A stretch of DNA of 21,139 nt from a virus. Shown one piece after another: positions 469-20,105 of this stretch (positions within the stretch are counted from its first letter, which is position 1; each line of letters starts with the position of its first letter). The DNA lies in the IMG/VR virus record IMGVR_UViG_3300021405_000183, positions 1 to 21,139 of that record; one strand, written 5' to 3'. The position numbers were made by a program, and so were the translations under genes. The notes beneath the pieces are model-generated. The model was given only the letters and a program-made list of their open reading frames with translations. It had not been told where the DNA came from and ran no database searches.

Positions 469-3400
469 ATGGCAGATACACAGCCTTCTTTAGCCGCAGA
501 AAATGCACTATCAGGAGTAGTCGTTGCTGAAGTTCCTGCGACCGCTCAACCCTCTATTCCTGGGGGTTTACGTGTTGTTGGTCTTATTGGTACAGGATTA
601 AATTACAAAAATGTTACTGTTACCATCACTCGCGGATCAATTCCAGACACATTCGATCTGCTTAACCCGGTAGCGTTGTCTCTCCCCAGCACGATCACGG
701 ATGAGAATAATAAAGTTTATTCTCTAGGATCGGGCCCAGGAGTTCTTGACTACTGGCTGTCTCTGCCAACGAGCACTTCCGCTGCAGGCGTATCCACCAT
801 CGATTGGAACGCCGCTCTACCTTCCGTTGGATTCAATACTCTCATTGTTAATCTTAACGGCGATGGTAACCAGACAATTACTCTGTTCACCACTGACGCA
901 AATCCGGTTGCAGTGGCCGCAGATATTCAACTGAAGGTTCGTGCGCTTGTTCCTTTCAACACGAACAACGCTCAGGCATATCTTCAGTTCACTGCTGTCG
1001 CGCAAGCTTCAACTAATCAGTATGTATTGACTTCCGGAACAACGCCGCTCGGTTCTGTGAACGTGAATGGGGGAACTGCCGCAGCTCTTCTGAAGTTGGG
1101 AACTGCTAATGATGGTATTGAAGTTCCTGGAGGAAGCATCAGCTGGGGACCTGCAGGAGTCGCAGCAGTCACTGGCGCAATTGACATAGGTGCAGCTGCA
1201 TTCCCTTCTGGAGTCAATCTTAATGGTCAGACATTTGAAGTCTCCGCCAATGGAAGTCCTGTCGTGCAGTCAATCACTTTCGTAGGTACTAGCTTGAGTC
1301 CTACGGATTTCACGACTCTGACAGGTGGAGTCGATCTCGTTCATAATTCAACTGCGGTGAATGGAGTGGGCACTTTATTCCTAGCGCAGTTGGCGCCAGG
1401 AGATCTCGTTCAATTCAACGGAGTAGCTCCGTCGTATCAGGTCGCAGCTGTTAACAGTAACACGAGCTTGACTCTCACAACAGAATTTGCGGGAGCAACT
1501 AATCCAGTGACAACTGGGTACGCTCTACTTTCTGATACCTCTATCTCTAACACTGGAGCATCTGTAATCAACGGAGACGTGGATCTTTCACCAGCGGGTT
1601 CTATTACACCTGGAGGTTGGACTGTAACGGGTACTGTTCACAACGGTGACGCGACTGCTGCGGCGGCTCTAGCAGCAGCCAACGCTTCATTCACTGCAAA
1701 GCAGTCGGCAGCTCTTGCGAGTGAGCCGGGAAGCAACATCCCTTCAGTATTAGATGGACAGACTCTCAACTCCCCTGCGGTAGGTGTGACTCAATACTTT
1801 ACGTTCGCATCTGGAGCAGCGACATTAAACGGAGTTCTAACGCTTAATGGTCCAGGCAACTTCGTAATTTACACCGCTAGTACGTTGGGCGTAGGAGCCA
1901 GCGGAGCTGCAACGGTAACCCTTACAGGTGGAGCGTTGGCTTCAAACGTCTACTGGGTCGTAGGTTCTTCTGCCACATTGCAGAATGCAGGTACAATATT
2001 CAACGGAAACGTTCTCGCGCAAGCTGCTATCTCCTTCCCCGCAGGCGGCTTGTACAATGGATCTTTTGCGGCGCTCGGTGCAGCTCTGACGACCGGAGGA
2101 GCAATAACGGTCAACGGTAATTCTGCTACACCTATTCCTGTTCCTATCAGCTTAGGAGATGGAATTGTCGAGCAGATGAATGCAGGCTTCTCACCAGTGA
2201 TAACGTTTAATTCGACGGTATCTACTTTAGCACATACAGTTACACTTCCGTCACTTCCTGTAACTGGTGACACGTTATTAATTCCTGGATTTACTTACAC
2301 TGTCTCACCAACGCCTGCATCCGGGCAGTATACGATCAGCGGAGTCAATCCTCTGTTGGTAGTCTTCAATGCGACAGCTGCTAATCAGTTCGTCCAGATT
2401 ACGTACGCAGTAGCTCCTACATTAGTAGCTTCCATATTCGCACCTCCTTTCCCGTCGACGGCGAACTACGTCGTAGTATCTACAGTGTCCACCGTCAATG
2501 CAGAAATACAAATCGGTAATGGTACGGCTAATACTACTCTTGGATTTACTCCAGGTACCCTTATCGAAGGTCCTCAAGAGCCTGCTGCAGGTGTTACATA
2601 CACGTTTACGTACGGAACACCGAAGATGACTACCGCGACGTTTGATGACTATGGTCCTACTCTGTATACGGATTTGATAAGTCTCATCGCAGCGTATGGC
2701 CCCGTTGCAACGTCCAACGACTTTACGAGTCCGCTACCTGGATCATCTTCCTTACCGCCGTGGGCGCCTTGGAGTGTAACAAATACGCTTCCTCTTGGAG
2801 CGCAGATCGTCTTCACAAACAGTGGAAACACTGGTGGCATCATGGCAGTACAGTGTAATCCAGCTGATGGAGCTCCTCTCGCTCAGTTCCAGAATGCTCT
2901 CAACAAGCTCGCGAACGTTTCGGGTGTTAACATCGTCGTGTGCTTAACTCCAGATCCGTTACTCACGCCGTCAATCGTGTCCCATGTTGTTAACGCGAGT
3001 CAGCCGCTCGAAGGTAACTTCCGCACAGCCATGATAGGTTTCGATCCTGCGCAAGTGTCTTTGACTAACTCTGGCGTCGATACCGCGATCTCTATAGCTG
3101 AAGGGGTAGCAGCATCAGGTAGTGGGCGTCGTTTCTTAATGCCATGGCCTCCCGCAGTCAACCTGTTCCTTGCGGGTAGCTCTACCATTCCGGCACAGCT
3201 AGACGGATCATTCCTCGCAGCAGCGATCGCAGGATTACGTATCGATGGAAACAATGACGTTGCTACACCGTTACTTAGACAGTTCTTATTCCCGTTCACG
3301 ACTGCAGCAGTCAACCTTATGCGCACGACCAAGCTACAGCTTCGTGATGGAGGAGTGACTGTTGTGGAACTTCAGAATGGTAATATCGTAATCACAGAAG

Positions 3401-3720
3401 ATACCACGACGGATCGTTCCACTGTTGACAACGAAGAGTTCTCAGTTACGGAGATTGTCGACTTCACCGCAACAACAGTAAAGACTCTCCTTAACTCGAT
3501 CTTCATCGGAGTTAAGATTCTTTCGAATACGACAAGCATCATCACTGCGACTATCCAGGTTCTTCTTAACAACTTGATCGCATTGAACATCATCACGAAC
3601 TACCAGAATGTCACCGCACAAGTCAGTCCTCTAGATCCTAGACAGATCGATGTTTCATTCGAAATCGCTCCTGTATACGGTCTAAGATACATCTCCGTGC
3701 AGTTCTCTCTACAACAGTAA
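469..3720 (+). CDS. tail sheath protein with inserted DUF3494 and other modules
   Basis: This is the contractile sheath subunit that surrounds the tail tube. The C-terminal part (about residues 720-1083) has the sheath pattern: TFDDYGP near 725, an NGNIVITEDTTTD strand-turn at 970-982, a helical FxGxKxLxxTTxxxI segment, and a final strand pair ending in ISVQFSLQQ. The N-terminal ~120 residues (GLRVVGLIGTG followed by a TRGS segment) also look like a sheath N-terminus. Between them lie accessory domains: a hook-like repeat (123-222), a G-T-x-F beta module (286-353), a full DUF3494 ice-binding-like domain (354-552) and a beta module (588-646). The 1083-aa length compares with roughly 400-700 for most sheaths, and the inserts account for the excess. 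Insertions in known sheaths face outward, so these domains are probably displayed on the tail surface. The start is fixed by the strong ribosome binding site. Two tube-like genes follow at once. Confidence 0.9.
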   Translation: MADTQPSLAAENALSGVVVAEVPATAQPSIPGGLRVVGLIGTGLNYKNVTVTITRGSIPDTFDLLNPVALSLPSTITDENNKVYSLGSGPGVLDYWLSLPTSTSAAGVSTIDWNAALPSVGFNTLIVNLNGDGNQTITLFTTDANPVAVAADIQLKVRALVPFNTNNAQAYLQFTAVAQASTNQYVLTSGTTPLGSVNVNGGTAAALLKLGTANDGIEVPGGSISWGPAGVAAVTGAIDIGAAAFPSGVNLNGQTFEVSANGSPVVQSITFVGTSLSPTDFTTLTGGVDLVHNSTAVNGVGTLFLAQLAPGDLVQFNGVAPSYQVAAVNSNTSLTLTTEFAGATNPVTTGYALLSDTSISNTGASVINGDVDLSPAGSITPGGWTVTGTVHNGDATAAAALAAANASFTAKQSAALASEPGSNIPSVLDGQTLNSPAVGVTQYFTFASGAATLNGVLTLNGPGNFVIYTASTLGVGASGAATVTLTGGALASNVYWVVGSSATLQNAGTIFNGNVLAQAAISFPAGGLYNGSFAALGAALTTGGAITVNGNSATPIPVPISLGDGIVEQMNAGFSPVITFNSTVSTLAHTVTLPSLPVTGDTLLIPGFTYTVSPTPASGQYTISGVNPLLVVFNATAANQFVQITYAVAPTLVASIFAPPFPSTANYVVVSTVSTVNAEIQIGNGTANTTLGFTPGTLIEGPQEPAAGVTYTFTYGTPKMTTATFDDYGPTLYTDLISLIAAYGPVATSNDFTSPLPGSSSLPPWAPWSVTNTLPLGAQIVFTNSGNTGGIMAVQCNPADGAPLAQFQNALNKLANVSGVNIVVCLTPDPLLTPSIVSHVVNASQPLEGNFRTAMIGFDPAQVSLTNSGVDTAISIAEGVAASGSGRRFLMPWPPAVNLFLAGSSTIPAQLDGSFLAAAIAGLRIDGNNDVATPLLRQFLFPFTTAAVNLMRTTKLQLRDGGVTVVELQNGNIVITEDTTTDRSTVDNEEFSVTEIVDFTATTVKTLLNSIFIGVKILSNTTSIITATIQVLLNNLIALNIITNYQNVTAQVSPLDPRQIDVSFEIAPVYGLRYISVQFSLQQ
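835..1134 (+). repeat. hook-like repeat domain, copy in the sheath
   Basis: Sheath residues ~123-222. The pattern is a LIVNLNGDGNQTITL strand pair, a helix (AVAADIQLKVRAL), an exposed segment, then YVLTSG, VNVNGGTAA, LKLG and a closing GG. Three further copies occur in the 1392-aa protein. The arrangement recalls flagellar 'hook-IN' type domains, but that comparison is only from memory of the pattern. Confidence 0.7.
1324..1527 (+). repeat. G-T-x-F beta module, copy in the sheath
   Basis: Sheath residues ~286-353. Key features are NGVGTLF, LAPGDLVQF, YQVAAVNSNTSLTLTTEFAG and TTGYAL. Two copies with the same order (GT-x-F, GD/GE, SI.D...LTL, YTG) lie in the 1392-aa protein. It ends exactly where the DUF3494 domain begins. 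Confidence 0.65.
1528..2124 (+). other. DUF3494 (ice-binding-like) domain within the sheath
   Basis: Sheath residues ~354-552. It has the full order of DUF3494 hallmarks: SISNTGASVINGDVDLSP, an Ala-rich helix after HNGDATAAAALAAAN, a FxxGxxTLNGVLTLNG strand, FVIYTASTLG, TLTGGALASNVYWVVGSSAT, FNGNVLAQAAISF, and a final LTTGGAITVNG. Length is about 200 residues, as usual for the family. The family is known from secreted ice-binding and ice-recrystallisation-inhibiting proteins with a right-handed beta-helix packed on an alpha-helix; not every member binds ice. Confidence 0.85.
2230..2406 (+). repeat. small beta module (TVTL..P ... GQ ... ITY), copy in the sheath
   Basis: Sheath residues ~588-646: HTVTLPSLP, IPGFTYTVSPTPASGQYTIS, VVFNATAANQFVQITYA. 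The same strand order (xVTLxxLP, GQFxVxYxTG, VTFxxAxAGDxVxITY) recurs in the 1392-aa protein and in the fibre-like gene at the right end. Confidence 0.55.
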
Positions 3721-5611: not shown

Positions 5612-7378
5612 ATGGCTGATGACATTCCTCTACCCGGAGAAACTCCTGACAATGTAGGCCCCTCTTCTGCAGAGAAGTCAGAAGCGGCGAAGGCAGCTCT
5701 TCGGGATATAGACGCTCTTTACAGCTCGCTTATTGGAAAGCAGAAAGATTCTACTAGAGAGGAGAATGCTTTTCTTAATTTGCTGTCTAAGCGACAGGCG
5801 ATATTGGATGAGATCTCTCAGAAGATGGTTGGTCTCTCCGGTGAGCAGAGAGCGTACGCTCGTGCGGAGTACGAAGCGATAGAAGATGAATCGAAAAGGA
5901 TTGCTTCTGTTGAAAAATATTTCGGCGTGACTAAGGGAGTTACAAAAGAGTTACAGGAGCAGGAGCGTATTCGTAAGGCTATTGAGAAAACGGGCGCAGC
6001 TCTTGGGATGCAGACAGCTGATATCGCTAGGCTCCAGGCTCTCGCCGCTGCGGATACGATGTTGGAACAACGACAGGGACATGCTGCAGCATTCGGAGAA
6101 AAAGTAGGGAGGGTAACCTCCACCGCCGGTAGCGCGTTGGGTGCCGCAGATGCTGTGTTCAATTTTCAGTTACAGAATGCGATGATAGGCGCCATCGGCA
6201 AGGCGACTACTCTGATGCAGGGTGGAAATATCCGGGGAGGAGCGCAGGCTTTATCTAACCAGCTATTTGGTGGTACAGGTGAAGCAATGGGGCCCGTTGA
6301 GAGGATGGAAGCTCTCAATAAGGTCTTAATGAATGCGCCGCGCGCCGCGGGAGAAACTTCTGCGTCCATGAATAAGATGATCGGTACCATGGCTTTCTTT
6401 GGTGCGGATATGGATAAGATCACGGAAAATCTTATCAAGGGCAATAAAGATCTTAATCTTTCCGCAGATAATCTCGCCGACGTGTACATGTCTGCGAATG
6501 CGGTATCAAAAAATTTGGGGCTATCCACACTAGACACATCTGACAACTTGCTCGAGATGTACGCGTCTCTTCGCCAGGTTGGTGGATCTGTTCATCAAGC
6601 GGAATCGATTTTAGACTCATTTGGTAAGACAGTTGGCAAGACAGGAATGTCCGCATCTGAAGCGGCAAGTCTGGCTCAAAAATTTTCACAAGGAATTTCT
6701 TCGCTGCCCATCGAAAAGATGATGGGTCTAGTACAATTTACAACCGGAAAACCTTTACAGGCACAGACGGCAGCGGATCTAGGTAATGGTAATATAATAC
6801 CTACAGTCTTAGCGACATTCAGTAAAATTTCTAGCCAAATGGGCGGCAGCTATAGTGAGCAGCTGGTAGCCACAGAAAAGATAGCACAGATGGTTGGTAT
6901 TAATGTGTCAAGCTTCCGTGACGTTTCTAATCTCATGACACAATTAAAGTCGGGCGCTCTCACGGAACATGACATTAATTTGTTATCGAATCCGGCTGTA
7001 GCCGCTGCAAAAGGTATTGAAGATCTCAAAGCAACAATCGATCCTCTTAAGAGGATCGCGAATGCTACGGAAAATTTACAAGCAACTGTATCGACACTAA
7101 GTGCTACAATCACGAATTGGGGATTAGGTAACTTGATGCCTGCGCTTATCGGACTCAAGGTCGGATCGGGAGTAGTAGGTGCTTTCGGCGGTGCTGCTAA
7201 GGTTGCAGCGGCTACTACTGGAACGGGTATAACTGCTGGTCTCGGTACAATGGAAGTAGGAGAGATAGCTGCTATGGGGCTGCTCAGCGCTCCTGCGCTA
7301 GTCGCTACGGCAGGTGTGGCTGCGGCAGGAGCCGCAGGATACTATGGCACCAAGTATGCAATGGATAAGCTGAGGTAA
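5612..7378 (+). CDS. tape measure protein
   Basis: A 588-aa protein directly after the chaperone pair, matching the position of the tape measure protein that sets tail length and occupies the tube lumen. Residues ~15-150 are charged and helical with coiled-coil character. The middle is Ala/Gly/Met-rich with long helices (MNKMIGTMAFFGADMDKITENL, and a Ser/Ala-rich stretch near 340-360). The last ~70 residues are strongly hydrophobic and Ala/Gly-rich, ending GYYGTKYAMDKLR, and could form a membrane segment. I see no lysozyme or peptidase motif. Length is modest: at the rule of about 1.5 angstrom per residue it would span at most ~90 nm. GAGAG 6 nt upstream of the ATG supports the start. Confidence 0.75.
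   Translation: MADDIPLPGETPDNVGPSSAEKSEAAKAALRDIDALYSSLIGKQKDSTREENAFLNLLSKRQAILDEISQKMVGLSGEQRAYARAEYEAIEDESKRIASVEKYFGVTKGVTKELQEQERIRKAIEKTGAALGMQTADIARLQALAAADTMLEQRQGHAAAFGEKVGRVTSTAGSALGAADAVFNFQLQNAMIGAIGKATTLMQGGNIRGGAQALSNQLFGGTGEAMGPVERMEALNKVLMNAPRAAGETSASMNKMIGTMAFFGADMDKITENLIKGNKDLNLSADNLADVYMSANAVSKNLGLSTLDTSDNLLEMYASLRQVGGSVHQAESILDSFGKTVGKTGMSASEAASLAQKFSQGISSLPIEKMMGLVQFTTGKPLQAQTAADLGNGNIIPTVLATFSKISSQMGGSYSEQLVATEKIAQMVGINVSSFRDVSNLMTQLKSGALTEHDINLLSNPAVAAAKGIEDLKATIDPLKRIANATENLQATVSTLSATITNWGLGNLMPALIGLKVGSGVVGAFGGAAKVAAATTGTGITAGLGTMEVGEIAAMGLLSAPALVATAGVAAAGAAGYYGTKYAMDKLR
7039..7058. repeat. 20-bp perfect palindrome inside the tape measure gene
   Basis: CGATCCTCTTAAGAGGATCG reads the same on both strands, with no mismatch and no spacer. 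It encodes the residues IDPLKRI in the tape measure frame. Confidence 0.8.
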
Positions 7379-7380
7379 TT

Positions 7381-7887
7381 ATGGCTAATACGAAATTTCC
7401 GCTGAAATTAAATGGAGTGAGCTTCTTGGTCAACCCTACTAATTTGAGCGTCAAGAAGCCCATCGTCAAGGGGGCAGTTAGTACCCAGTCTGGTGTACGA
7501 TTCCAGATATGGTATAATAATCCAGAGATATTGACCATAAGTGGTCTATCTACCGGTCAGTCCGCTTACTCTGAATTACTATTTCTTAAACAGAACTACG
7601 AAATCACTAGAACGTCGACGATCAGCACTCTCTTCTACAAAACTAAACTTTACCGCGGTTTTATAGATTCTATAGAAGTGGGACACTCGATTGATAGGCA
7701 TCAGCGGTGGCCTTATACGATCCAATTCCAATTGATACAAGGGGAGCAATTTAATATAATGGACTTTGCTCTACAGCCAGGTACAGGGCCTCTAGGACAG
7801 ATCACCAATCTATTGGAACAAAATATCAACGCGCCTATTGCTAGAGCGACCGGCGCGCTTAATGGCGTGATAGGAAAAGTAATCTAA
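7381..7887 (+). CDS. tail tube-baseplate junction protein (putative)
   Basis: A 168-aa protein that begins 2 nt after the tape measure stop and overlaps the next start by one base (TAATG). Residues ~1-130 are beta-rich: FPLKLNGVSFLVNPTNLSV, GVRFQIWYNNPEILTISG, then a KLYRGFIDSIEVGHS pair and a YTIQFQLIQGEQFNI strand. The last 35 residues are a helical tail. Small proteins with a G..FQIWYNNPE.L.I.G strand pattern in this position are usually tube-initiator or baseplate-cap proteins on which the tube is built. The function is inferred from place and fold pattern, not from a specific motif. GAGG 5 nt before the ATG supports the start. Confidence 0.5.
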   Translation: MANTKFPLKLNGVSFLVNPTNLSVKKPIVKGAVSTQSGVRFQIWYNNPEILTISGLSTGQSAYSELLFLKQNYEITRTSTISTLFYKTKLYRGFIDSIEVGHSIDRHQRWPYTIQFQLIQGEQFNIMDFALQPGTGPLGQITNLLEQNINAPIARATGALNGVIGKVI

Positions 7888-9497
7888 TGATATCATCCGG
7901 TGCAGGAGGCTACCCAGTGCCTCCAACTAGCGGGTCTATACCAACGCCAACTAGTTCTCCAAGTAATCAATCGTCGGATCAGGACATCTCTAGTCCTCTT
8001 CTGATTGATTACTTAAAGACACGTTGCTACTTGTACAAGTTTACTCCGGAGGTTTCTTTCGGAGGTAAGGTAGTAGCTCCTGCTCCTCCTCCCATTCCTA
8101 AGAGTACGACATCTGTGATAAGCACGAAGTTACACGCGATGGCTGCGCAGGTCTATGCATTTAACCAAGCGCTACTCAACACTTTTATAGGTAACAGCTC
8201 TGCGGATATTAGCGATAATTCCTTTGCTGTAGCGAAAGTTATTTCCACCTTCGTCAACTCTATTCTCGTTCCGAATAATGGAATAGTTCTGCCTACTGCG
8301 ACTAGTAGTCTTCATATATCTTTGTATGATGGACTCGTTGAAGATGCCAACGACGTAGCCGCCTACTTGGTCGATCGATCAGATGGGGCTCCTCCAATCG
8401 ACTCTCAGAGACAAGCAGAACTCCTGCAGGAGGTCGCAAACTTGGAGACGTGGGCAGCGTCTGCGTACGCTGTCATTATCAATGCGGCGACCTCGGCAGA
8501 TGCTGCGACGTCAGGAATAGTTTCATCGGCGGTAGCTGCTTCTTACACAGCGACTGCTTTACAACAATTTAAAGTTAATCGCTTCGTCTACGATTTGAAT
8601 ACTAAGGATCTATCTCGATTTGATTTATCGAGGTTCATCAGTAACTATTCCGTTCAGCAGCAGCTCGGAGACATCTCAACCGTGGGGACAATGAGTAGCA
8701 CTGTAGCGCTGCAGAATGCTATCATTCCTCTGCAGGATCTTGGTCCTATTGCAAGTCCTACATCTGTTCGTCGTCCGATGTTTTTCCCAAATGCTAAGGG
8801 CGACTATGCGGGTTATGTCAACGGATTGCCTAGTGCTGCATCGCCTTCGGTTATACCTTCTCTGGATCCCATATCTCTCGAACCGATATCGACACTGCAA
8901 GCGGACGAACTAATGACGCGGATAGCGATGGCACAAACTCTAGAAGATGACGGCGGAGCAGGAGATGGTACTGAACAACTTCAGTCAGGAGTTACTAGTC
9001 CTTATCCTGATGCGTTTCTCACCGACGTAGATAGGGTGGAGATAGCCATCCGCTTAAGGGGTATAGCAAATCCGCGGAAGAAAGAATTGATTGCTGAGTA
9101 TTTTAGTACGGGAAAGGTCAGCACAGATCTCATTCGGCTGCTGCCTAATCCTGCTCAAAATACTATCTCGGGTCAAGTAGCCACCGCTGCGTTAGCGACT
9201 TCTACAGCCTTATCTAATCTGGTTACTAATGGTAACGCTCTTCCCGGTTTAACTCAGTCGCAACAGGCCATCGCGAATCAACTCACCGCGAAACCGGGGG
9301 ATACCGCGACACAACTTGCCAATCTGTCAGAGCTGTTGACCGATGCTAAAGTGGACGGTATAGCCGTAGGTGACCTGGTTCAAAAGTATGACTTCTTCAG
9401 TATCTTTGTTTATAAGCATGAGGTTTCTCCAGACGCCGTAGAAGAAACTCTCACGTTGAATACAAATATTTTTTTGATAAAGAATCTCTACCACTAG
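7887..9497 (+). CDS. baseplate hub-like protein, first part (zero frame)
   Basis: This frame encodes 536 aa. It starts with a low-complexity Ser/Pro/Gly segment (SGSIPTPTSSPSNQSSDQD), then YLKTRCYLYKFTPEVSFGGK, helices, and a VKVNRFVYDLNTKDLSRFDLSRFI-like strand block near residues 233-258. The end of the frame reads ...NTNIFLIKNLYH and stops at TAG 9495-9497. The sense continues in the -1 frame: the peptide FFDKESLPLVTPFVFYLNNYGPG follows if the reading frame slips at the seven-T run (9469-9475). I therefore treat it as the N-terminal part of a 1273-aa protein continuing in the next entry. The truncated form could also be made on its own if the shift is programmed. Confidence 0.7.
   Translation: MISSGAGGYPVPPTSGSIPTPTSSPSNQSSDQDISSPLLIDYLKTRCYLYKFTPEVSFGGKVVAPAPPPIPKSTTSVISTKLHAMAAQVYAFNQALLNTFIGNSSADISDNSFAVAKVISTFVNSILVPNNGIVLPTATSSLHISLYDGLVEDANDVAAYLVDRSDGAPPIDSQRQAELLQEVANLETWAASAYAVIINAATSADAATSGIVSSAVAASYTATALQQFKVNRFVYDLNTKDLSRFDLSRFISNYSVQQQLGDISTVGTMSSTVALQNAIIPLQDLGPIASPTSVRRPMFFPNAKGDYAGYVNGLPSAASPSVIPSLDPISLEPISTLQADELMTRIAMAQTLEDDGGAGDGTEQLQSGVTSPYPDAFLTDVDRVEIAIRLRGIANPRKKELIAEYFSTGKVSTDLIRLLPNPAQNTISGQVATAALATSTALSNLVTNGNALPGLTQSQQAIANQLTAKPGDTATQLANLSELLTDAKVDGIAVGDLVQKYDFFSIFVYKHEVSPDAVEETLTLNTNIFLIKNLYH
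9470..9476 (+). promoter_or_regulatory. candidate -1 frameshift site, T TTT TTG
   Basis: In the zero frame the codons are ATT TTT TTG ATA AAG. T TTT TTG fits the X XXY YYZ slippery rule. The -1 frame is closed by TGA at 9419 and open from 9422 through the whole downstream 700-aa frame, so a shift must fall within 9422-9497. The T run is the only good slip point I see there. A missing T from sequencing or assembly, or a true mutation, would give the same picture. Confidence 0.55.
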
Positions 9498-11707
9498 TCA
9501 CCCCTTTCGTTTTCTACCTAAACAATTATGGTCCCGGCGCGACTAATACTCCCACTGCAGACAGCAGAGTCGTTCCTACGTACGCCTCCGAATTTAATGG
9601 CTTCGTGGCGGAGACGACTTATTCTTCAGTTCCGGGTTCGGTTAACATGCTGAATTTGAATCTCATGAGTTCTATGGGACTAATGGGAGCGACAAAGCGT
9701 ATCTACAACGCAACCATCTATCAGCAGTCCGTCTTCGATGCGGCGGAAACGTTTGATTCGGATATATTCAATCTCTACCAGAATCTTTATGTGGGCAAAG
9801 ATCCGCTACAAATCCTGACTATACTTTTGGATAGTCTTTATCTTTTACGTATTGGTCTCCCATATCAAGCTTTTCAAAAAGCGTTATCGACAGATCAGAT
9901 TGCCCAAATTAATGCCACTGTAGCGCAGACACTTCAAGCATCCGCTCCGAGTCTCATAGCGGCGCAACAGTCGATCGCGGTGGCAGCTGCTCAGCGTAAC
10001 TTACAGCAAACGAGCATCGGTGGTCGCACCGTGCGTGACTCCGCAGGTAATTTGTCCTCTTTCTTAGATATATTGAGCATGAGGGCTTTCAACCAATTTG
10101 GAGTAGACAACGTAAGTAGTGATGGCTCGACAGCCGCCGCGGGAGCCATAAATCTTTTCAACATGGCATCATTTTTGTACGCTAATGTAATGAGACAGAG
10201 ACGATTCAACGTCAGAGTAGCTACGGAGTCACAGATTGCGCAGCTAGATGAACTCTATGGAGGTACTGGAGTAAATACGGGTATCCTGCCTTTCTTCCTA
10301 GAGAGTCCGGAGAATACTGGTACTCCGTTCGGCGTCAAGGGCGGATCAGGATTCAACGATCTCGGTGCGTTTCAACCGTTTATCAGTTCTTCTGGTCAGC
10401 TAATAGCGGGGACTGCGGCTATACCTAAGGAGTGTGATGGATCGGGTGGAAGTATTCTCGAAATTAATCCGTTTCTAGATACAGCTGGTTCCTATCTAAA
10501 TTCCTCTGTGACGTCTCTACAGACGGGTCTTCAGCAGGCGCTAGATTGGAAAACTTATTTCGTCTTCTTGTCTTCCAGCTTTGATCAATTCGTTGCGGAT
10601 CTAAAGACGCCCTACGAAATAATGGGGGATGTAGTCAGCTCGTGCTACTTAGAACTCTTTGAAACTCCGGGTGGACGATTCATTTTCAGAACTCCTCAAT
10701 ATAACAATAAGATACCATTATATCGACTAAGCTCCCAAGATGGAAATGTACAAGTTCCTGCTCAGCAGACACTTGTTACTAACGCGGCGAACGGGGCTAC
10801 GGAAACAAGTTCAACTGCTACGGAAGCATCTAACTATGCGCACATGATTACGTCGACGGACATATATGTCATTTCTTCCGAATACAGTCAGTCAGCAAAG
10901 AATCTAGTCTCTAAACAAGCGATCGCGTACGGCGCAGATCTGATAGGTGTCCCGGTTATTCCACAGTTATATTATTTTTATAGCAACGGCAAGATGATAG
11001 CTCAGTATGGGTTGACTCTCGGTAAGTCTATTGAAAATCCTAACGTGAGAGCTATACCTCACGATAAGATACAATTGTCCTCCGCTGGCTCTACCATCTT
11101 CAATGGAATTTTTCACTACTGCAGATTTTTCTTAGAGTATGCCAATATGAATAATTTTACGGCTACTATTACTGCTATCGCGGATCCTGTCATACAGGCA
11201 GGTCGCACCTATTTTGATATACAGAATCAGAAATTCGGATATATCTCTAACGTGACTAAAAACTTAGAAGTGGGTGGTACTTACACTTGTACGTTCACGC
11301 TGAAAGCGGTTAGAGATGCTGTGTACGGCGTCTACGTGACAGATAGCGGGAGCTCTTCACCAACACAGCCTCTATCGAGTCCTACTTTTAGATACTTACC
11401 GGAGATGGAGCAATTCATCGGTAAATTTACGGGCAACAATACTATTGTAAAGAATCTGTCTACGACGCAAGTCAGTAAGGCGGGACCCGCACAGGTCTTC
11501 CAGCCTCTACCTACCAGCGCGCGTCTGGCTGCGTTAACTGCAGCATCTTCGCAGCAACCGGGCTCTGTAAATACGCCGGCGACGACGCCATCTACGGTTC
11601 CTTCACCTGTGCAGTATACTCCCGTAACAATACCTGTCCCTATCGCTTTGCCTCCAGCGCAGACGCCGCCTGTTTACGTATCTATACCAATTCCTCCTCC
11701 AAAGTAA
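9476..11707 (+). CDS. baseplate hub-like protein, second part (-1 frame)
   Basis: This 743-codon frame is open from 9422. A conventional start would be GTG at 9605 (700 aa), but it has no Shine-Dalgarno sequence, and the ~40 residues before it (9476-9604, ESLPLVTPFVFYLNNYGPG and onward) look like ordinary protein. I therefore join it to the preceding frame as one 1273-aa product. Near its C-terminal third is a hub-like segment: ITAIADPVIQAGRTYFDIQ, KFGYISNV, GTYTCTFTLKAVRDAVYG. This resembles the 'transport/binding domain' end of gp27/gpD-type baseplate hubs, which form the ring at the base of the tube. The last ~45 residues are Pro/Thr-rich (TIPVPIALPPAQTPP) and end in PIPPPK, probably a flexible tail reaching the spike. 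The spike gene follows after 1 nt. Confidence 0.6.
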   Translation, partial: DKESLPLVTPFVFYLNNYGPGATNTPTADSRVVPTYASEFNGFVAETTYSSVPGSVNMLNLNLMSSMGLMGATKRIYNATIYQQSVFDAAETFDSDIFNLYQNLYVGKDPLQILTILLDSLYLLRIGLPYQAFQKALSTDQIAQINATVAQTLQASAPSLIAAQQSIAVAAAQRNLQQTSIGGRTVRDSAGNLSSFLDILSMRAFNQFGVDNVSSDGSTAAAGAINLFNMASFLYANVMRQRRFNVRVATESQIAQLDELYGGTGVNTGILPFFLESPENTGTPFGVKGGSGFNDLGAFQPFISSSGQLIAGTAAIPKECDGSGGSILEINPFLDTAGSYLNSSVTSLQTGLQQALDWKTYFVFLSSSFDQFVADLKTPYEIMGDVVSSCYLELFETPGGRFIFRTPQYNNKIPLYRLSSQDGNVQVPAQQTLVTNAANGATETSSTATEASNYAHMITSTDIYVISSEYSQSAKNLVSKQAIAYGADLIGVPVIPQLYYFYSNGKMIAQYGLTLGKSIENPNVRAIPHDKIQLSSAGSTIFNGIFHYCRFFLEYANMNNFTATITAIADPVIQAGRTYFDIQNQKFGYISNVTKNLEVGGTYTCTFTLKAVRDAVYGVYVTDSGSSSPTQPLSSPTFRYLPEMEQFIGKFTGNNTIVKNLSTTQVSKAGPAQVFQPLPTSARLAALTAASSQQPGSVNTPATTPSTVPSPVQYTPVTIPVPIALPPAQTPPVYVSIPIPPPK

Positions 11708-13927: not shown

Positions 13928-15382
13928 ATGATACTTACGGTCACCCAAGTAATTAACAATATGGTCGCGTATATTCAGAATGTCATCCCTGGATTGTCGC
14001 TCTTGGAGGGAACTGTCGCCAGAGATGTCGTCATAGAGTCGCCAGCTCAAGAGTTTGGCCGCGTATGGACTGAATTGGGTAGAGTGGAAGCTATGCAGAC
14101 GATGACGGATCCTACTGCATTCATTAACAATGAGCTCGATAATCTCGCTTCCAGCTTTGGTCTTACGCGTAAACCTGGAACAGCCGCATTGGGCTCCGTT
14201 ACATTCTCTCTCGCTAATTTTTCGCCCTCGTCGAGCAATATTACTATTTCTGCGGGCACGGAAATATCGACACAGTCTAGTCTGACTAATAATACCGTTG
14301 TCACATTTACAACGACTTCAACCGTAACATTCGTGGCCGCCAACGCAAGTACTTTCTACAATCCGCAGAACGGAGACTATGAGATAACTGTACCTATTCA
14401 GGCAACGACTGCCGGTACTCAAGGTAATGTAGCAGCGGGTACGATCAACGTTCTCGTAACCTCTTTACCGAATAATATAACGGTTAGTAACTCCAACGCA
14501 ACTTTTGGAGGATCGGCAGCAGAGTCAGACGCGGCACTTCTCACACGAATTCAACTGAAGTTAGCGGGTACCGCTATGGGTACTCCAAGCGGAATACTCA
14601 GCTTTGTAAATGCAAGCCCCTACGTGATAGCCTCCCTACTAGTGGGTCCTACTGATCCTTTGCTGGTTCGTAGCTCTTATGGCAATGCGGCAGATGTATA
14701 TATCATCGGAGATCTTCCAACACCTGTCGTAGAAACGCAAACGTTTACCGCGGGAATAGCTACGTACGTCTTACAGCAGCAACCTGTGGAGGCGGGATCG
14801 GTTAATCAAATCATAGCAGGTACCGTCGGTGGATTGAGTTTTAACTTTGTAGAGGGAACTAATTTCGTAGTCAATCAGGATAACACAACATCTGCGGGTG
14901 GATCTGTCAATGCACAGACCTCCGTGACTTTTCTCGGGTCGCCTTTCCCCGATGCGAATACGGGTATTACTATAGATTATTCCGTTAATAATCTCATTGT
15001 TGATCTGCAGACTTCGATCAACAGCGATACTAATCACATTGTGGGGACAGATATTCTAATAAGAGAAGCCATTCAGGTTCTTGTAGATGTAAGCGCCTTC
15101 ATTACTGTCTTTCCAGGCTATACGAAAGCGAATGTAGTCGCGGCGGCAGTCACCAATGTAGATAACCTTTTGAATTCATCTACGCTCGGATCTTCCATCA
15201 GCGAGTCAGATATTATAGCCACTATTCAAGAAACTCCTGGGGTCAATGCTGTCTCAATACCTATTTTCATATCTATCTCTACTCCAACGGTTCCCGCGCT
15301 CACACCTGTGGTTAATCTTGTGACGGCCGAAAATCAATATTTGAGACCTAACCCGGCTCCTAACTCGATATCAATTACCTAA
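13928..15382 (+). CDS. baseplate J-like wedge protein
   Basis: A 484-aa protein with a clear Baseplate_J pattern: helical N-terminus with EGTVARDVVIESPAQEF, then LASSFGLTRKPGTAALGSVTF, SAGTEISTQ, FYNPQNGDYEITVPIQA, GTQGNVAAGTI near residue 185, and SAAESDAALLTRIQLKLAGTAMGTPSG near 205-230. The middle adds a VETQTFTAGIATYVLQQQPV beta segment and the C-terminal ~100 residues carry the NVDNLLNSSTLGSSISESDIIATIQETPGV pattern. It is the wedge component linking the inner baseplate to peripheral proteins. GAGGGA 5 nt before the ATG supports the start, and the gap to the gp25-like gene is 2 nt. Confidence 0.85.
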   Translation: MILTVTQVINNMVAYIQNVIPGLSLLEGTVARDVVIESPAQEFGRVWTELGRVEAMQTMTDPTAFINNELDNLASSFGLTRKPGTAALGSVTFSLANFSPSSSNITISAGTEISTQSSLTNNTVVTFTTTSTVTFVAANASTFYNPQNGDYEITVPIQATTAGTQGNVAAGTINVLVTSLPNNITVSNSNATFGGSAAESDAALLTRIQLKLAGTAMGTPSGILSFVNASPYVIASLLVGPTDPLLVRSSYGNAADVYIIGDLPTPVVETQTFTAGIATYVLQQQPVEAGSVNQIIAGTVGGLSFNFVEGTNFVVNQDNTTSAGGSVNAQTSVTFLGSPFPDANTGITIDYSVNNLIVDLQTSINSDTNHIVGTDILIREAIQVLVDVSAFITVFPGYTKANVVAAAVTNVDNLLNSSTLGSSISESDIIATIQETPGVNAVSIPIFISISTPTVPALTPVVNLVTAENQYLRPNPAPNSISIT

Positions 15383-15926: not shown

Positions 15927-18900
15927 ATGTCAGAATACGGAACGATATTATACACGGGCCGCGGAGGCCCTACTAACTACTACACGGGAGCTGGTACTGA
16001 TCAGCCCCAGAGTCTAGATTTCTATCGAACGGATACCGATGGAGACTATGTATTTCACTGGACATTTTTACAATCGTTTGTGAGCCCTCTCATAAATCCT
16101 ACGCTCTTTAGCCTCGACTATATCCTGCAGCTAGATACTAATCCAACGTTCAATCTGCCGACAACCTTCGAAACGGTTTCAGGTCAGGCGGATGTATCTG
16201 CTCACGGGAAAAATATATCGGGGCCCTACGCCGCAACGGCTATAGGATCGGGCCTCACTCTTATCATCAATATTGATGGAGACGGACTGCAGACAGTTAC
16301 TCTCCCTGCTAACGCTTCAGGGACGGCTATCGCGGCGAGTATTCAGTCGGCTGTACAAGCTTTGACGGCCTTTCACCCCGCTCTGCAGTCCTCCTATAAT
16401 AATTTTCTAGCTAACTTCGAGTTGCTCAGCGGTGCGCCTACTTACGTACTATATTCTGGGAGTATAGGTGTGTCTAGTTCGGTGGTTGTGTTGGGAGGTA
16501 CTGCCGCTCCGATATTAAATCTGGGGGTGCCTTATGGAGGGATTCAGTCGTTAGGTGGAGAACATGTTTTACAATTTCTACCTGGAGGAGTGCTGAGTGT
16601 AACGGATAGTTCAGGCGTCGTTTACACTGATGTATCCGCAACGACTAACACACCAGGACTTAATCAATTCGTTGTGAGTATTCCTACGGGTGTGATCACT
16701 TTCAACATAGGAAATATTCCAGGCCTTCAAGATACTTTCACCATAATATACTTCCCGGCTACTAGTGCGCCTATTCTTAATTTTCAAGACGGTAATGTGG
16801 AGAAGGGATTTACGGTACCAGTACCTCCGCGAGTGGCGAGTGCTCCTGTCACCTTCTACGCTAGAGTAGCCGTTAAGTATGGTCCATTCTCTTATGGAAC
16901 GTGGTCTTCTACCTTAACTGTTCTGACGATTCCTAACGTCATCAATGAGACGTTCAGTCGTCTGATGTTGGCTCTTCCTGACTTCCACGTATATCCCACG
17001 GATAACGCTTACTTACTTAATGGTTCCCTAGTCGATGGAATAATTCCAAATCCGCTGCCAGCAGGATTGAGTAATATTGCCAAAGTGTACTTGGCGTACG
17101 CCACACAATTCGATTTAGAGTATCTCGAAAAAGAGAATGCCATAAGAGACGTGAGACAGGATCGTCAGCGCGACGAGCGCTTAGGATCTATTCTAGGCGC
17201 TCTATATAAGTATCCCCAACCGAAGGGGGTGCAGAACGTAGATTATCGACTAATACTTAGCGATATGAAGGCAGCTTCTCTAGATGGAGCCACATACGAA
17301 GCGGTTAAGTTAGTCGGCGCAGCATTCACGGGTGTCGATCCCACAATATTTCCTATATCGAAAATCCTTAATTTTATTACAGCAAGTTTTGATACCGAAC
17401 TTACCGGAGTCAATTATCCTGGAGTCATTCAGAATATAACAGTTGATCCTGTTACTCATATGGCAACATTGTCGGATGGTGTTGCTAACGATCCGATTAT
17501 TCCTGGATCACTCATCTCAGGACCTGTGGCTTCTATTACAGATGGACCCGAATCTATTCCATCTGTCGCGCCTTTCACCCTGACGCTATCACAGCTGCCC
17601 GCGGATATCCCTACTATCGCTGGATATACGTTCACCACAGGAGCTCCCGCTGTGAATCAGTTCAGCGTGAACTTCGCAGCGCCAGGAGCGTCCATATCTG
17701 GTGCTTCTCCTGCGACTACTACTTCTGGACTGTCCTTCAATATTGATATTAATGGAGATGGAATTCAAACCGTTACAATCGGCGCTCAGTCATCTGGAGC
17801 GAATATTGCCGCAGCGATACAGGCAGTCATTCGTTCGCTCACAGCTAATACTCCATTTAACCAGGCGGCGTACGATGCAACCACTGTTGTGTACACAACT
17901 GTTTACACGCTCACTTCTGGAGCAGGCGGATTAAACTCGAGTGTCATCATCACAGGCTTAGGAGCTGCACCCCTAAAGCTTGGGCAAGCGAATGGGGGAA
18001 CTGAAACAGGCCCTTCGGGTGTCGTAACTTTCAACCCATCTAATGCAGGAGATTCTGTTTCAATTACGTACGTACCTAATTACGAGCGCGGAAATATGGA
18101 TGTTCCCGGCAGAACACTTATCATCAATATCGATGGTCTTGGACCTCAAACGATTACTCTGGTAGCTAATGCTGCCAACGATTACTTAGCTACGAAGACA
18201 GGCGTCGCGTTAGCTATACAGACTGCGGTCAATAATCTTGGTCCAGCGCCTGCAACTACTCAGTTAGCGCTACTCGCTTCATCGACTATTACGAACAGCG
18301 GGTCATCTATCATCACGGGTGACGTTGATCTTACTCCGGGTTCCTCCGTAACAGGATTTCCTCCAGGAACATATAGTGGTACACTTAATATAGATAATGC
18401 AGCAGCAGCGAATGCTATGGCAGCAGCTAACACTGCATTCACAGCAGGGCAATCTGCGGGACTAGGTGGTACGTTACTCACCGCAGATTTGAGCACGTAC
18501 AGTCCTCTACCTCCGGGTAATTACTATTACTCCGCGTCAGGAGGTTTGACAGGTAGCTTAGTTCTGAATGGTACAGCATCCTCCACGTGGGTTATCTACA
18601 CGGGGAGCACTTTAACTACTGCTTCCGCCTCCTCCGTTACGATGACAGGAGGAGCTTTAGCGAAAAATGTGTTATGGGTTGTAGGTAGCTCTGCGACATT
18701 TGGAACTTCAACTTCTTTCCAGGGAAATGTTATCGCACACGCGAGCATCACGTTGAATGGTGCCGACGCTATGAATGGACAGTTATCGGCTCTCACAGGG
18801 GCAATAACTATCGCGACCGCTAGTACAGTTGTTGGATCTACTCAACCAGCTGCTCCAGGATCCCAGACAGCTTACACTGATTTCGCGGCCCTATACAATT

Positions 18901-20105
18901 CCGCAACGGACGCGTTTACGCTTGTTTCGGGAAATCAATCGCCTACACAAACTAGTACCGTTGCTGTAACAGGAGGGACTGCGGCTACTCAGTTGCGCTT
19001 GTTAGCTGCCGACGGCGCTACACAAACTTACGGTCTAGTTTACGAAACTCCTCCAGGTCCCCCTCTCGGTCCTCCTTCTGGAAAATTTGCAAGTAATATC
19101 GTTCCGCCGGGAGATGGAAGTATTCTGACATTCAACGCAAATGAAGCAGGGAATATACATACAGTACTATTTCTTCCCGTGGCTGATATCTTCACATATC
19201 TACCGGGGATAACTGTGGAAAATATACCTATTGCTCTTACGGTTCCCTCATCGCCACCGTATACGATCACGCTGGCTAACGCATCCTGCGACATCCCTAA
19301 GATAATACTTGTTAAAGGAACAGTTAATGTTAACAACGGGTCTCCTCTCGTAGTGGGTAGCGGTACTATGTTCACTTCTCTAGAGATAGGAGATACGGTT
19401 GCGGTACTGGCCTCTGGTGTTTACTACGGACCTTATATCATCCAGAGCATTGCAGATAATACTCACCTGACTCTGGCGTCTAACTATACAGGGACTAACG
19501 CCGGATCAGCGGGCTTCATAGACTATGATCGCAGCTCTTATAAATTCATACCGACGCCTACGGTGGCAGGTGCATCTATCTCAGGAACTGTATCAATAAC
19601 TAACGGCTCCCTATTAGTCGTAGGTACCGCTACGTCTTTCACTGCTACTCTATCTGTAGGAGAAGCTATTCAGTTCAGCAGTCAACTCGGTACTCTCTAC
19701 TTCATTGAGTCTATCACGGATGACTTCAACTTAACATTAGAGACAGCGTACACAGGAATAACTACGACGTCAACGACCGTTAATCCTCCGGGGTTAGCGC
19801 CATTCCCTCCTGTGGTTAATCCGGGTGAGTTCACGGACGACTTTGGTACACCTGCAACTTTGACATTCAATGCATCGGCAGCAGGCGACCCCATAATTGT
19901 ATCATATACGATACGTGTACCTATCCAGGATATTGATACGGTTAATAATGCGCCTATATTGTTCAGTGATACCGAAGCAGGTTTCGGTATCGAAATCATA
20001 TTGAATAACCCCGCGTTGTTCACTTTAGATCTATCTAACATATCGTTCCTATTGACACAGATTCTTCCAGCGAATACAAAATTCATCCTGACGGAAGTAC
20101 CATAA
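15927..20105 (+). CDS. 1392-aa multidomain baseplate protein with nested DUF3494
   Basis: A large structural protein at the periphery of the baseplate. From the N-terminus: an Fn3-like domain interrupted by a hook-like repeat (halves ~30-86 and ~284-336, insert ~108-211); a helical region (~337-490) with ATQFDLEYLEKENAIRDVR and DYRL (439-442), resembling tail-protein-I/wedge-linker domains; a small beta module split by another hook-like repeat (549-586 and 698-717 around 599-695); a third hook-like repeat (729-778 plus 980-1036) split by a DUF3494 domain (780-970); and a beta module (from 1110 and ~1307-1328) holding two G-T-x-F modules (1131-1201, 1220-1285). The last ~65 residues (GFGIEIILNN..., ILTEVP) close the chain. 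Position after baseplate J suggests a peripheral baseplate or fibre-linking role; the wedge-like region is the least certain call. Confidence 0.7.
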   Translation: MSEYGTILYTGRGGPTNYYTGAGTDQPQSLDFYRTDTDGDYVFHWTFLQSFVSPLINPTLFSLDYILQLDTNPTFNLPTTFETVSGQADVSAHGKNISGPYAATAIGSGLTLIINIDGDGLQTVTLPANASGTAIAASIQSAVQALTAFHPALQSSYNNFLANFELLSGAPTYVLYSGSIGVSSSVVVLGGTAAPILNLGVPYGGIQSLGGEHVLQFLPGGVLSVTDSSGVVYTDVSATTNTPGLNQFVVSIPTGVITFNIGNIPGLQDTFTIIYFPATSAPILNFQDGNVEKGFTVPVPPRVASAPVTFYARVAVKYGPFSYGTWSSTLTVLTIPNVINETFSRLMLALPDFHVYPTDNAYLLNGSLVDGIIPNPLPAGLSNIAKVYLAYATQFDLEYLEKENAIRDVRQDRQRDERLGSILGALYKYPQPKGVQNVDYRLILSDMKAASLDGATYEAVKLVGAAFTGVDPTIFPISKILNFITASFDTELTGVNYPGVIQNITVDPVTHMATLSDGVANDPIIPGSLISGPVASITDGPESIPSVAPFTLTLSQLPADIPTIAGYTFTTGAPAVNQFSVNFAAPGASISGASPATTTSGLSFNIDINGDGIQTVTIGAQSSGANIAAAIQAVIRSLTANTPFNQAAYDATTVVYTTVYTLTSGAGGLNSSVIITGLGAAPLKLGQANGGTETGPSGVVTFNPSNAGDSVSITYVPNYERGNMDVPGRTLIINIDGLGPQTITLVANAANDYLATKTGVALAIQTAVNNLGPAPATTQLALLASSTITNSGSSIITGDVDLTPGSSVTGFPPGTYSGTLNIDNAAAANAMAAANTAFTAGQSAGLGGTLLTADLSTYSPLPPGNYYYSASGGLTGSLVLNGTASSTWVIYTGSTLTTASASSVTMTGGALAKNVLWVVGSSATFGTSTSFQGNVIAHASITLNGADAMNGQLSALTGAITIATASTVVGSTQPAAPGSQTAYTDFAALYNSATDAFTLVSGNQSPTQTSTVAVTGGTAATQLRLLAADGATQTYGLVYETPPGPPLGPPSGKFASNIVPPGDGSILTFNANEAGNIHTVLFLPVADIFTYLPGITVENIPIALTVPSSPPYTITLANASCDIPKIILVKGTVNVNNGSPLVVGSGTMFTSLEIGDTVAVLASGVYYGPYIIQSIADNTHLTLASNYTGTNAGSAGFIDYDRSSYKFIPTPTVAGASISGTVSITNGSLLVVGTATSFTATLSVGEAIQFSSQLGTLYFIESITDDFNLTLETAYTGITTTSTTVNPPGLAPFPPVVNPGEFTDDFGTPATLTFNASAAGDPIIVSYTIRVPIQDIDTVNNAPILFSDTEAGFGIEIILNNPALFTLDLSNISFLLTQILPANTKFILTEVP
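16014..16184 (+). other. Fn3-like domain, first half (residues 30-86)
   Basis: FHWTFLQS..., then LDYILQLDTNPTFNLPTTFETVSG, resembles fibronectin type III strands A-C'. The missing strands reappear at 16776-16934 (residues 284-336): QDGNVEKGFTVPVPPR, VTFYARVAVKYGPFSYGTWS. The material between is a hook-like repeat and a beta module, so the domain is split by an insertion. Confidence 0.45.
16248..16559 (+). repeat. hook-like repeat, copy 1 in the 1392-aa protein
   Basis: Residues ~108-211: LTLIINIDGDGLQTVTL, AIAASIQSAVQAL, YVLYSG, VVVLGGTAAP, NLGV and a closing GG. Lies inside the Fn3-like domain. Confidence 0.7.
17721..18011 (+). repeat. hook-like repeat, copy 2 in the 1392-aa protein
   Basis: Residues ~599-695: LSFNIDINGDGIQTVTI, NIAAAIQAVIRSL, TLTSG, SVIITGLGAAP, LKLGQANGG. 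The beta module strands flank it on both sides (NQFSVNF before, GVVTFNPSNAGDSVSITY after). Confidence 0.7.
18111..19034 (+). repeat. hook-like repeat, copy 3, interrupted by DUF3494
   Basis: First half at residues ~729-778 (RTLIINIDGLGPQTITL, VALAIQTAVNNL). Second half at ~980-1036 (QTAYTDFAALYNSATDAFTLVSG, VAVTGGTAA, LRLL). Removing the intervening ~200 residues restores a repeat of about 107 aa, the same length as the uninterrupted copies. Confidence 0.7.
18264..18836 (+). other. DUF3494 (ice-binding-like) domain, second copy
   Basis: Residues ~780-970: ASSTITNSGSSIITGDVDLTPG, SSVTGFPPGTYSG, an Ala-rich helix (NAAAANAMAAANTAF), GNYYYSASGGLTGSLVLNG, WVIYTGSTLTT, VTMTGGALAKNVLWVVGSSAT, FQGNVIAHASITLNG, and GAITIATASTVVG. 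The block order is the same as in the sheath copy, with clear identity but many differences, so the two are diverged. It includes the FPPGT motif common in the family, which the sheath copy lacks. Confidence 0.88.
19317..19529 (+). repeat. G-T-x-F beta module, copy 1 in the 1392-aa protein
   Basis: Residues ~1131-1201: GTVNVNNGSPLVVGSGTMF, LEIGDTVAV, YIIQSIADNTHLTLASNYTG. Same order as the sheath copy. Confidence 0.65.
19584..19781 (+). repeat. G-T-x-F beta module, copy 2 in the 1392-aa protein
   Basis: Residues ~1220-1285: GTVSITNGSLLVVGTATSF, LSVGEAIQF, YFIESITDDFNLTLETAYTG. Tandem with the preceding copy; about 18 residues separate them. Confidence 0.65.

Follow-up and report, generated by a model that had tools for sequence, protein, structure and literature searches.

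Cellular DUF3494 proteins are known mainly as secreted proteins, and their structures include those of AnpIBP (PDB code: 7bwx), EfcIBP (PDB code: 6eio) and a Flavobacteriaceae ice-binding protein (IBP; PDB code: 5uyt). The domain described here has the same fold, length and B-face make-up and shares with AnpIBP the two site residues tested there, but theirs are cellular, whereas here it is part of the sheath of a virion and, in one family of sheaths, is circularly permuted. Viral genes of the corresponding Pfam family, PF11999, have themselves already been reported: three from the Central Arctic were presented as auxiliary genes with a possible role in protecting the host (PMC11515562). They likewise place an ice-binding-like domain in viral contigs, but as an auxiliary gene, with no virion protein mentioned in the accessible part of that report, whereas in the present case the domain belongs to a sheath. 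The same source names homologs in Synechococcus phage S-SKS1; a search of the S-SKS1 record (HQ633071) for PF11999 returned nothing at E ≤ 1. In BFVD, DUF3494 proteins of 261, 389 and 623 amino acids are assigned by title to the giant virus Hyperionvirus, so that these too are viral proteins with the domain, but they are not named tail sheath; several other top BFVD rows are tail sheaths.

The Ig-like adhesive domains of phages are similar in being accessory virion domains that, in the excerpts available, may hold the particle at a surface, but their presumed ligand is different. Their fold is also other than that of DUF3494. The core of the sheath is homologous to the sheaths of phi812 (PDB code: 5li2), Bixzunavirus-type mycobacteriophages and the Tunturiibacter phage Tunturi_5. 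Unlike the sheath described here, the records of the sheath relatives Tunturi_5, Mx1, Phrappuccino and LR745208 returned no PF11999 match at E ≤ 0.1, in a search that was also blank for control genomes and positive for the present record and other IMG/VR records. The main text of the report on the Tunturi viruses (PMC11924767) contains neither ice-binding nor DUF3494 nor tail sheath. In the open-licence literature, preprints excluded, no report was found that joins DUF3494 with phage or ice-binding with tail sheath, which agrees with the initial annotation, whose author knew of no such domain in a phage sheath. The fold described below is thus not itself new, but its place in a structural protein of the virion is.

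The stretch analysed (hereafter, the window) is a virus record of 21,139 bases with a tail gene block on the plus strand, in which the sheath gene is followed by genes for a probable tape measure, a probable sheath initiator, a Baseplate_J protein and long proteins beyond it (Table 1). The sheath gene was assigned by matches to two PHROGs tail sheath families, phrog_2839 (E = 1.7e-27, residues 770–1081) and phrog_279 (E = 3.3e-21), and Phage_sheath_1C (PF17482) matches residues 992–1080 with 23.6 bits (E = 5.7e-5), under the cut-off of 26.9. The predicted fold of residues 991–1083 matches sheath structures 3lml (Z 10.3, 92 aligned) and 5li2 (Z 9.8, 87 aligned), and a sequence profile of the sheath (A4) finds the phi812 sheath 5li2 at E = 5.6e-6. 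The Baseplate_J gene, with a match above its cut-off, confirms a contractile-tail gene block; the matches for a tail terminator, tape measure and sheath initiator are all below their cut-offs. Two window reading frames (7887–9497 and 9605–11707) correspond to a single 1275-aa ORF in a matching contig (L003:16391–20218), so the two sequences differ there by a frameshift, which is perhaps a sequencing or assembly error.

Table 1. Coordinates of the sheath gene, its domains and other features (window positions unless a contig label precedes them)
Feature	Position	Strand	Residues and basis
Tail sheath gene, DUF3494 carrier	469..3720	+	1083-aa ORF; phrog_2839/phrog_279; fold match 3lml, 5li2
Small uninterrupted module	829..1134	+	121–222; one of 8 copies in module profile
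Interrupted FliD-D2-like module, first half (two strands)	1216..1323	+	about 250–285; alignment to L084, L096 and L097 sheaths and L084 model (module profile not significant here)
Small accessory domain	1324..1509	+	286–347; phrog_9922/phrog_1980; alignment
DUF3494/PF11999 ice-binding-like domain	1519..2121	+	351–551; profile made in this analysis, Pfam, fold
S500-S501-A502-T503 of sheath	1966..1977	+	S500 and T503 align with S153 and T156 of AnpIBP
Helix GDGIVEQMNAGF of interrupted module	2155..2190	+	563–574; empty-site alignment; helix inferred from L084
Interrupted module, last part	2464..2556	+	666–696; alignments
Conserved sheath core and C-terminal domain	2776..3717	+	770–1083
Probable tape measure protein	5612..7378	+	588 aa; TMP_3 E = 5e-9, 36.6 bits, under cut-off 41
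Baseplate_J protein	13928..15382	+	PF04865 E = 4.5e-21; phrog_6
Second DUF3494 carrier, after baseplate genes	15927..20105	+	1392-aa protein; ORF, profile match
First half of module split by second DUF3494	18108..18260	+	profile 3–65 at residues 728–796
Second DUF3494 domain	18261..18839	+	about 779–971; PF11999 E = 3.9e-35
Second half of module split by second DUF3494	18879..19034	+	profile 8–102 at residues 941–1036 (first part of this match overlaps second DUF3494)
Third DUF3494 domain, in 1077-aa protein	L014:8884-9492		
Similar small modules	829-1134, 16248-16559, 17724-18008; L014:13768-14421; L003:1-2859		

In the Pfam search the sheath matched PF11999 (Ice_binding) over residues 354–541 with E = 6.6e-21 and 75.4 bits against a cut-off of 28.7, the match covering positions 2–201 of the 208 in the profile. 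The claim of the initial annotation that a phage tail sheath holds a complete DUF3494 domain is thereby borne out, and its bounds of 1528–2124 were right to within 9 bases of those set by the new profile. It had also anticipated a right-handed beta-helix with a packed alpha-helix. An AlphaFold2 model of the sheath, built on an alignment of 19 sheaths, has a beta-solenoid of many short strands with a long packed helix (residues 395–417) in this region, in essence the fold anticipated. The predicted model is closest to AnpIBP (residues 349–554; Z 24.8, 1.6 Å rmsd, 187 aligned) and EfcIBP (residues 349–557; Z 24.8, 2.1 Å rmsd, 195 aligned), and 25 ice-binding or antifreeze entries match at Z 21.5–24.8, the next row falling to Z 13.3. 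The DUF3494 part has ten-residue mean pLDDT values of 49–90, mostly 65–90; the full 1083-aa model has a mean of 46 and is weak outside DUF3494 and parts of the C-terminal region. For this reason the smaller sheath of a relative in the same family, L084 (756 aa), was also modelled, with a mean pLDDT of 66.6, and its residues 163–363 superimpose on AnpIBP with Z 35.3 and 1.0 Å rmsd over 199 residues at 44% identity.

The ice-binding site of AnpIBP, its strands and residues S153 and T156, has been described, and at S153 and T156 a change to tyrosine lowered activity to 17% (PMC7277481, in the part accessible). The B-face positions of the phage domains were mapped by alignment to AnpIBP rather than from coordinates, and the remaining domain, core included, served as the control in place of the other faces. 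By this mapping 21 of the 24 outward B-face residues of the window sheath domain are A, G, S or T, 13 are S or T and none is charged, against an A/G/S/T fraction of 0.50 in the remaining domain. The corresponding means are 0.89 versus 0.51 for 49 other phage domains, 0.85 versus 0.53 for 11 L084-type sheath domains and 0.70 versus 0.43 for 76 bacterial rows. As the entire phage set is rich in these residues, part of the B-face signal may reflect general composition. Of the 62 phage domains of full length, 61 have serine or threonine at position 500 and 61 have threonine at position 503, whereas among the 76 bacterial rows the counts are 27 and 44; permuted and partial domains are outside the set counted.

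The same phage carries further copies of the domain. An IMG/VR contig of 49.9 kb (3300050821_005866; G001), 99.94% identical to the window over the 13.7 kb compared, has three DUF3494 domains: one in the sheath, one in the 1392-aa protein and one in a protein of 1077 aa that is encoded past the end of the window. In a 59-kb contig (3300014501_000021; G002) the sheath is 65% identical and holds DUF3494 at the same place, and two more copies occur in the counterparts, assigned by gene order, of the 1392-aa and 1077-aa proteins. The two PF11999 matches of the window each fall within a long tail-region ORF, so that neither is a separate gene of the auxiliary kind. Nor did the window record or G001, each of which may be a fragment, yield a small PF11999 gene standing on its own.

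Relatives without the domain define the insertion site. Two close relatives of the window sheath, L096 (474 identities over 768 aligned residues) and L097 (425 over 743), lack DUF3494, and alignment to them places the insert between the end of the small accessory domain and the helix GDGIVEQMN, which follows immediately 3' of it. The accessory domain is present in both of these relatives. A phrog_1980 match extending over residues 286–532 had pointed to a fibre family with DUF3494, but in the 1392-aa protein and in L096 phrog_1980 covers the small accessory domain only, and the longer extent was therefore taken as spill-over. The window-type insert precedes the helix of the module, whereas the L084-type insert follows the corresponding helix, and this location on opposite sides indicates two insertion points within one sheath family. 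Residues 94–406 of the L084 model, which span the insert, match the flagellar cap protein FliD (PDB code: 6kty; Z 10.1, 2.9 Å rmsd, 100 aligned), and in this predicted model the interrupted module resembles the D2 domain of FliD. A profile of the module, made from eight copies that have no insert, is matched in two parts on either side of DUF3494 in the 1392-aa protein, in its G002 counterpart and in the third carrier. Beside the insert of the window sheath the same profile gave no significant match, so the nesting in that protein rests on the alignments. The uninterrupted module near the N-terminus of the window sheath is of the same kind as those in other virion proteins of the phage, and similar small modules, FliD-like by the L084 model, recur in several proteins of one phage.

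The distribution of the domain was surveyed by two scans of IMG/VR. An alignment of seven such domains served as the query of the first, and the best 80 of 181 relatives correspond to 70 loci, whose carrier ORFs were clustered by shared coverage; 25 of these 70 loci are sheaths. Five belong to the family of the window sheath: L084 was identified as phrog_2839, and L063 and L077 have no PHROG match and match the window sheath core at E ~1e-36. A second family has 19 members, two of which were put to PHROGs and matched tail sheath family phrog_279, and with the C-terminal part of L054, one of these two, every member of the family gave a match at E ≤ 1.3e-47. The remaining sheath, L087, matches phrog_16991 (tail sheath, E = 4.6e-5). 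In a 10-member carrier family the one member put to Pfam is Baseplate_J, and a 2585-aa Baseplate_J protein with DUF3494 was observed at L035:5888–13642. Families of 16 long and 17 short ORFs had no PHROG match for the two members of each that were searched; the short-ORF family is mixed, in that L074, L078 and L086 carry the domain in permuted form and are perhaps sheath ORFs that have been broken.

The second scan, with the sheath core of the window family as query, gave 23 loci, of which 15 have DUF3494 and eight, representing six distinct sequences, lack it. Taken together, the scans yield at least 35 DUF3494 sheaths, at least 27 of them distinct at 90% identity and forming at least six groups at 50%, so that the combination of sheath and DUF3494 for which the initial annotation proposed searching viral metagenomes does recur there. 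Among 20 chosen viral contigs PF11999 was found in all 20 and at least twice in 19, the halves of permuted domains not being counted apart. By tblastn against 50,697 phage records, no match was obtained for five single domains, namely two from the window (E limit 0.01) and one L084-type, one permuted and one bacterial domain (E limit 0.1). Two whole sheaths did find matches in the phage records, and those listed (30 of 214 and 30 of 33) all start after DUF3494. A pattern-based scan of species genomes for the sheath core gave 123 matching stretches and no relatives, and no host is therefore inferred. In another phage, a 578-aa protein with DUF3494 (L006:6061–7797) is encoded between a major-capsid-like gene and a gene with a weak major-tail match, and is perhaps a decoration protein.

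Most members of the 19-member, phrog_279-type family have the domain in circularly permuted form. The part that matches profile positions of about 40–200 comes first, and a later stretch starting from position 1 or 2 is found in 13 of the 19 (E < 0.05), most strongly in L080 (residues 350–399, E = 4e-15). Of 84 ORFs, 14 scored more than 5 bits better with a profile rotated near position 44 than with the original, and each of these either belongs to this family or is one of the short ORFs L074, L078 and L086; the gain amounts to 20–42 bits in L051, L053, L071, L072, L075, L076, L080, L085 and L089. Rotation at alignment column 90 was ahead in nine ORFs, at column 130 in one and at column 170 in none, and since neighbouring rotations also win, the exact cut of the permutation is not sharp. 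The exceptions within the family are L044, which is not permuted, and L050, L054, L056–L059 and L067, which gain less than 5 bits. In four members viewed by eye, the flanks of the permuted domain look like the same FliD-like module.

Other stretches were seen in the N-terminal region of related sheaths, namely L104 and L105, where they appear by eye to be repeated, and Tunturi_5, whose sheath (L090:3469–7083) has 1204 amino acids and no PF11999. The N-terminal region of the sheath thus seems to be a hotspot where accessory domains are inserted.

A quick tree of 138 full-length domains, with SH-aLRT as its support measure and the permuted domains left out, groups the window sheath domain with domains of other carriers (8 rows, support 98; 11 rows, support 100), and closest to it is a short protein of L021 at 59% identity. 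A separate set is made up of the L084-type sheath domains (8 rows, support 99; all 11 with three bacterial rows, support 97). This topology suggests that domains pass from one virion protein to another and that different sources supplied the two insertions into sheaths. Two placements do not fit a simple account: weakly supported forks keep the sheath domains of the window and G002 from being sisters, and the second domain of the window, on a long branch, falls close to the bacterial rows and apart from the corresponding G002 domain. Because a phage-based query was used to collect the bacterial rows, the tree has limited bearing on the cellular source. From the insertion points, the empty sites and the tree together, we infer that sheaths gained DUF3494 more than once.

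As a part of the sheath, the domain would be present in many copies on each virion. The initial annotation spoke of hundreds: the multiplicity stands, and the number comes down to about 130–140, nearer to over a hundred, when the tail length is estimated from the 588-aa tape measure by the rules of thumb of 1.5 Å per residue and six subunits per sheath ring of about 38 Å. These copies would be displayed outward around the tail, because the tube fills the sheath lumen, which is a steric argument; the full model, with a mean pLDDT of 46, has too low a confidence to show which way the domain points. We consider it an even chance that DUF3494 acts as a surface-binding cassette round the tail that binds ice by its B-face and keeps virions at the ice-water boundary. 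The presumably flat, uncharged, Thr/Ser-rich B-face would be what binds ice, a step of which we are less sure; free virions would then be held where the remaining liquid concentrates host cells, and perhaps be protected through freezing and thawing. Among the ligands proposed at the outset, namely ice, polysaccharide or the host surface, the conserved Ser/Thr-rich B-face leans towards ice. Judged from sequence and comparison, the domain is most likely adhesive, with ice as the likeliest single ligand, and the sheath domain can probably bind ice. A broader reading, that of widespread ice-adhering tailed phages whose sheath, baseplate and fibre-like proteins are coated with ice-binding domains that turn the virion into an ice-binding particle, and which gained them more than once within FliD-like modules, in one sheath family in permuted form, is put forward tentatively, at somewhat below even odds.

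Glycan adhesion is the main rival to ice binding. Virions would be held on the host capsule, biofilm matrix or environmental polymers and the ligand would not be ice, which we regard as rather unlikely, if far from negligible. The carriers of DUF3494 include not only sheaths but also a baseplate protein and further long proteins, a range that is usual for general adhesive domains, and a role in mucus or epithelial adhesion has been published for phage Ig-like domains (PMC6867891, PMC13370021, in the parts accessible). DUF3494 proteins have also been described as substrate-binding (PMC12337378, again from the accessible part), a Ser/Thr face could serve for glycans instead of ice, and some DUF3494 contigs may come from places without ice. 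Against this, the AnpIBP-like face, including the two tested residues, is present in nearly all full-length phage copies, and the 25 PDB sequences matching the domain profile are all named ice-binding, antifreeze or DUF3494 proteins save one with an Ig-domain title, which is itself a Shewanella ice-binding protein.

It is improbable that the domain has no ligand and serves as a stiff spacer, resistant to proteases, which makes the tail thicker, occupies a hotspot of insertion or protects the sheath. Such a role would fit the other inserts in the N-terminal region of related sheaths (Tunturi_5 and the repeats of L104/L105) and the eight of 23 related loci that manage without the domain, but it does not lead one to expect a presumably flat, uncharged B-face with positions 500 and 503 kept across divergent copies, nor presence in several sheath families. 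Protection of the host population, by virions or unassembled sheath that are freed at lysis and inhibit ice recrystallisation around it, is very unlikely: host cryoprotection was suggested for the three PF11999 genes of the Arctic viral contigs (PMC11515562, in the part seen), but the domain here is inside long tail-region genes and neither the window nor G001 has a small PF11999 gene of its own. An assembly chimera, in which a bacterial ice-binding gene was fused to a sheath, was rejected as having next to no chance. The window and its kin are metagenome contigs and no match to the domain was found in the isolate collection, as a chimera would have it, but the reading frame is open through both joints, the 65%-identical relative has the same joints, distinct DUF3494 sheaths number at least 27, and the domain-bearing sheath gene is also found in contig L003 (99.94% over 13.7 kb), which is perhaps of the same population as the window contig.

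On the preferred reading of surface adhesion, viruses of bacteria with such tail domains could adhere to ice, or else to some other surface at which they meet their hosts. If ice binding is true, virions use ice as a surface, which bears on phage survival, spread and host encounter in frozen or freezing places, and each particle would be a natural display of over a hundred ice-binding domains. Even with a glycan as the ligand, one cellular fold has been repeatedly captured by contractile sheaths. The repeated capture, the permuted form and the relatives with an empty site make the function of sheath decorations directly testable.

Some further proteins were noticed by eye. Long proteins with many FDGxNMWV-type repeats are encoded at L003:2863–5700 and L004:626–6938 and are perhaps beta-propeller fibres. 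The products of L015:3131–5629 and L015:9515–9892 resemble ribonucleotide reductase and a QueC-like protein, respectively.
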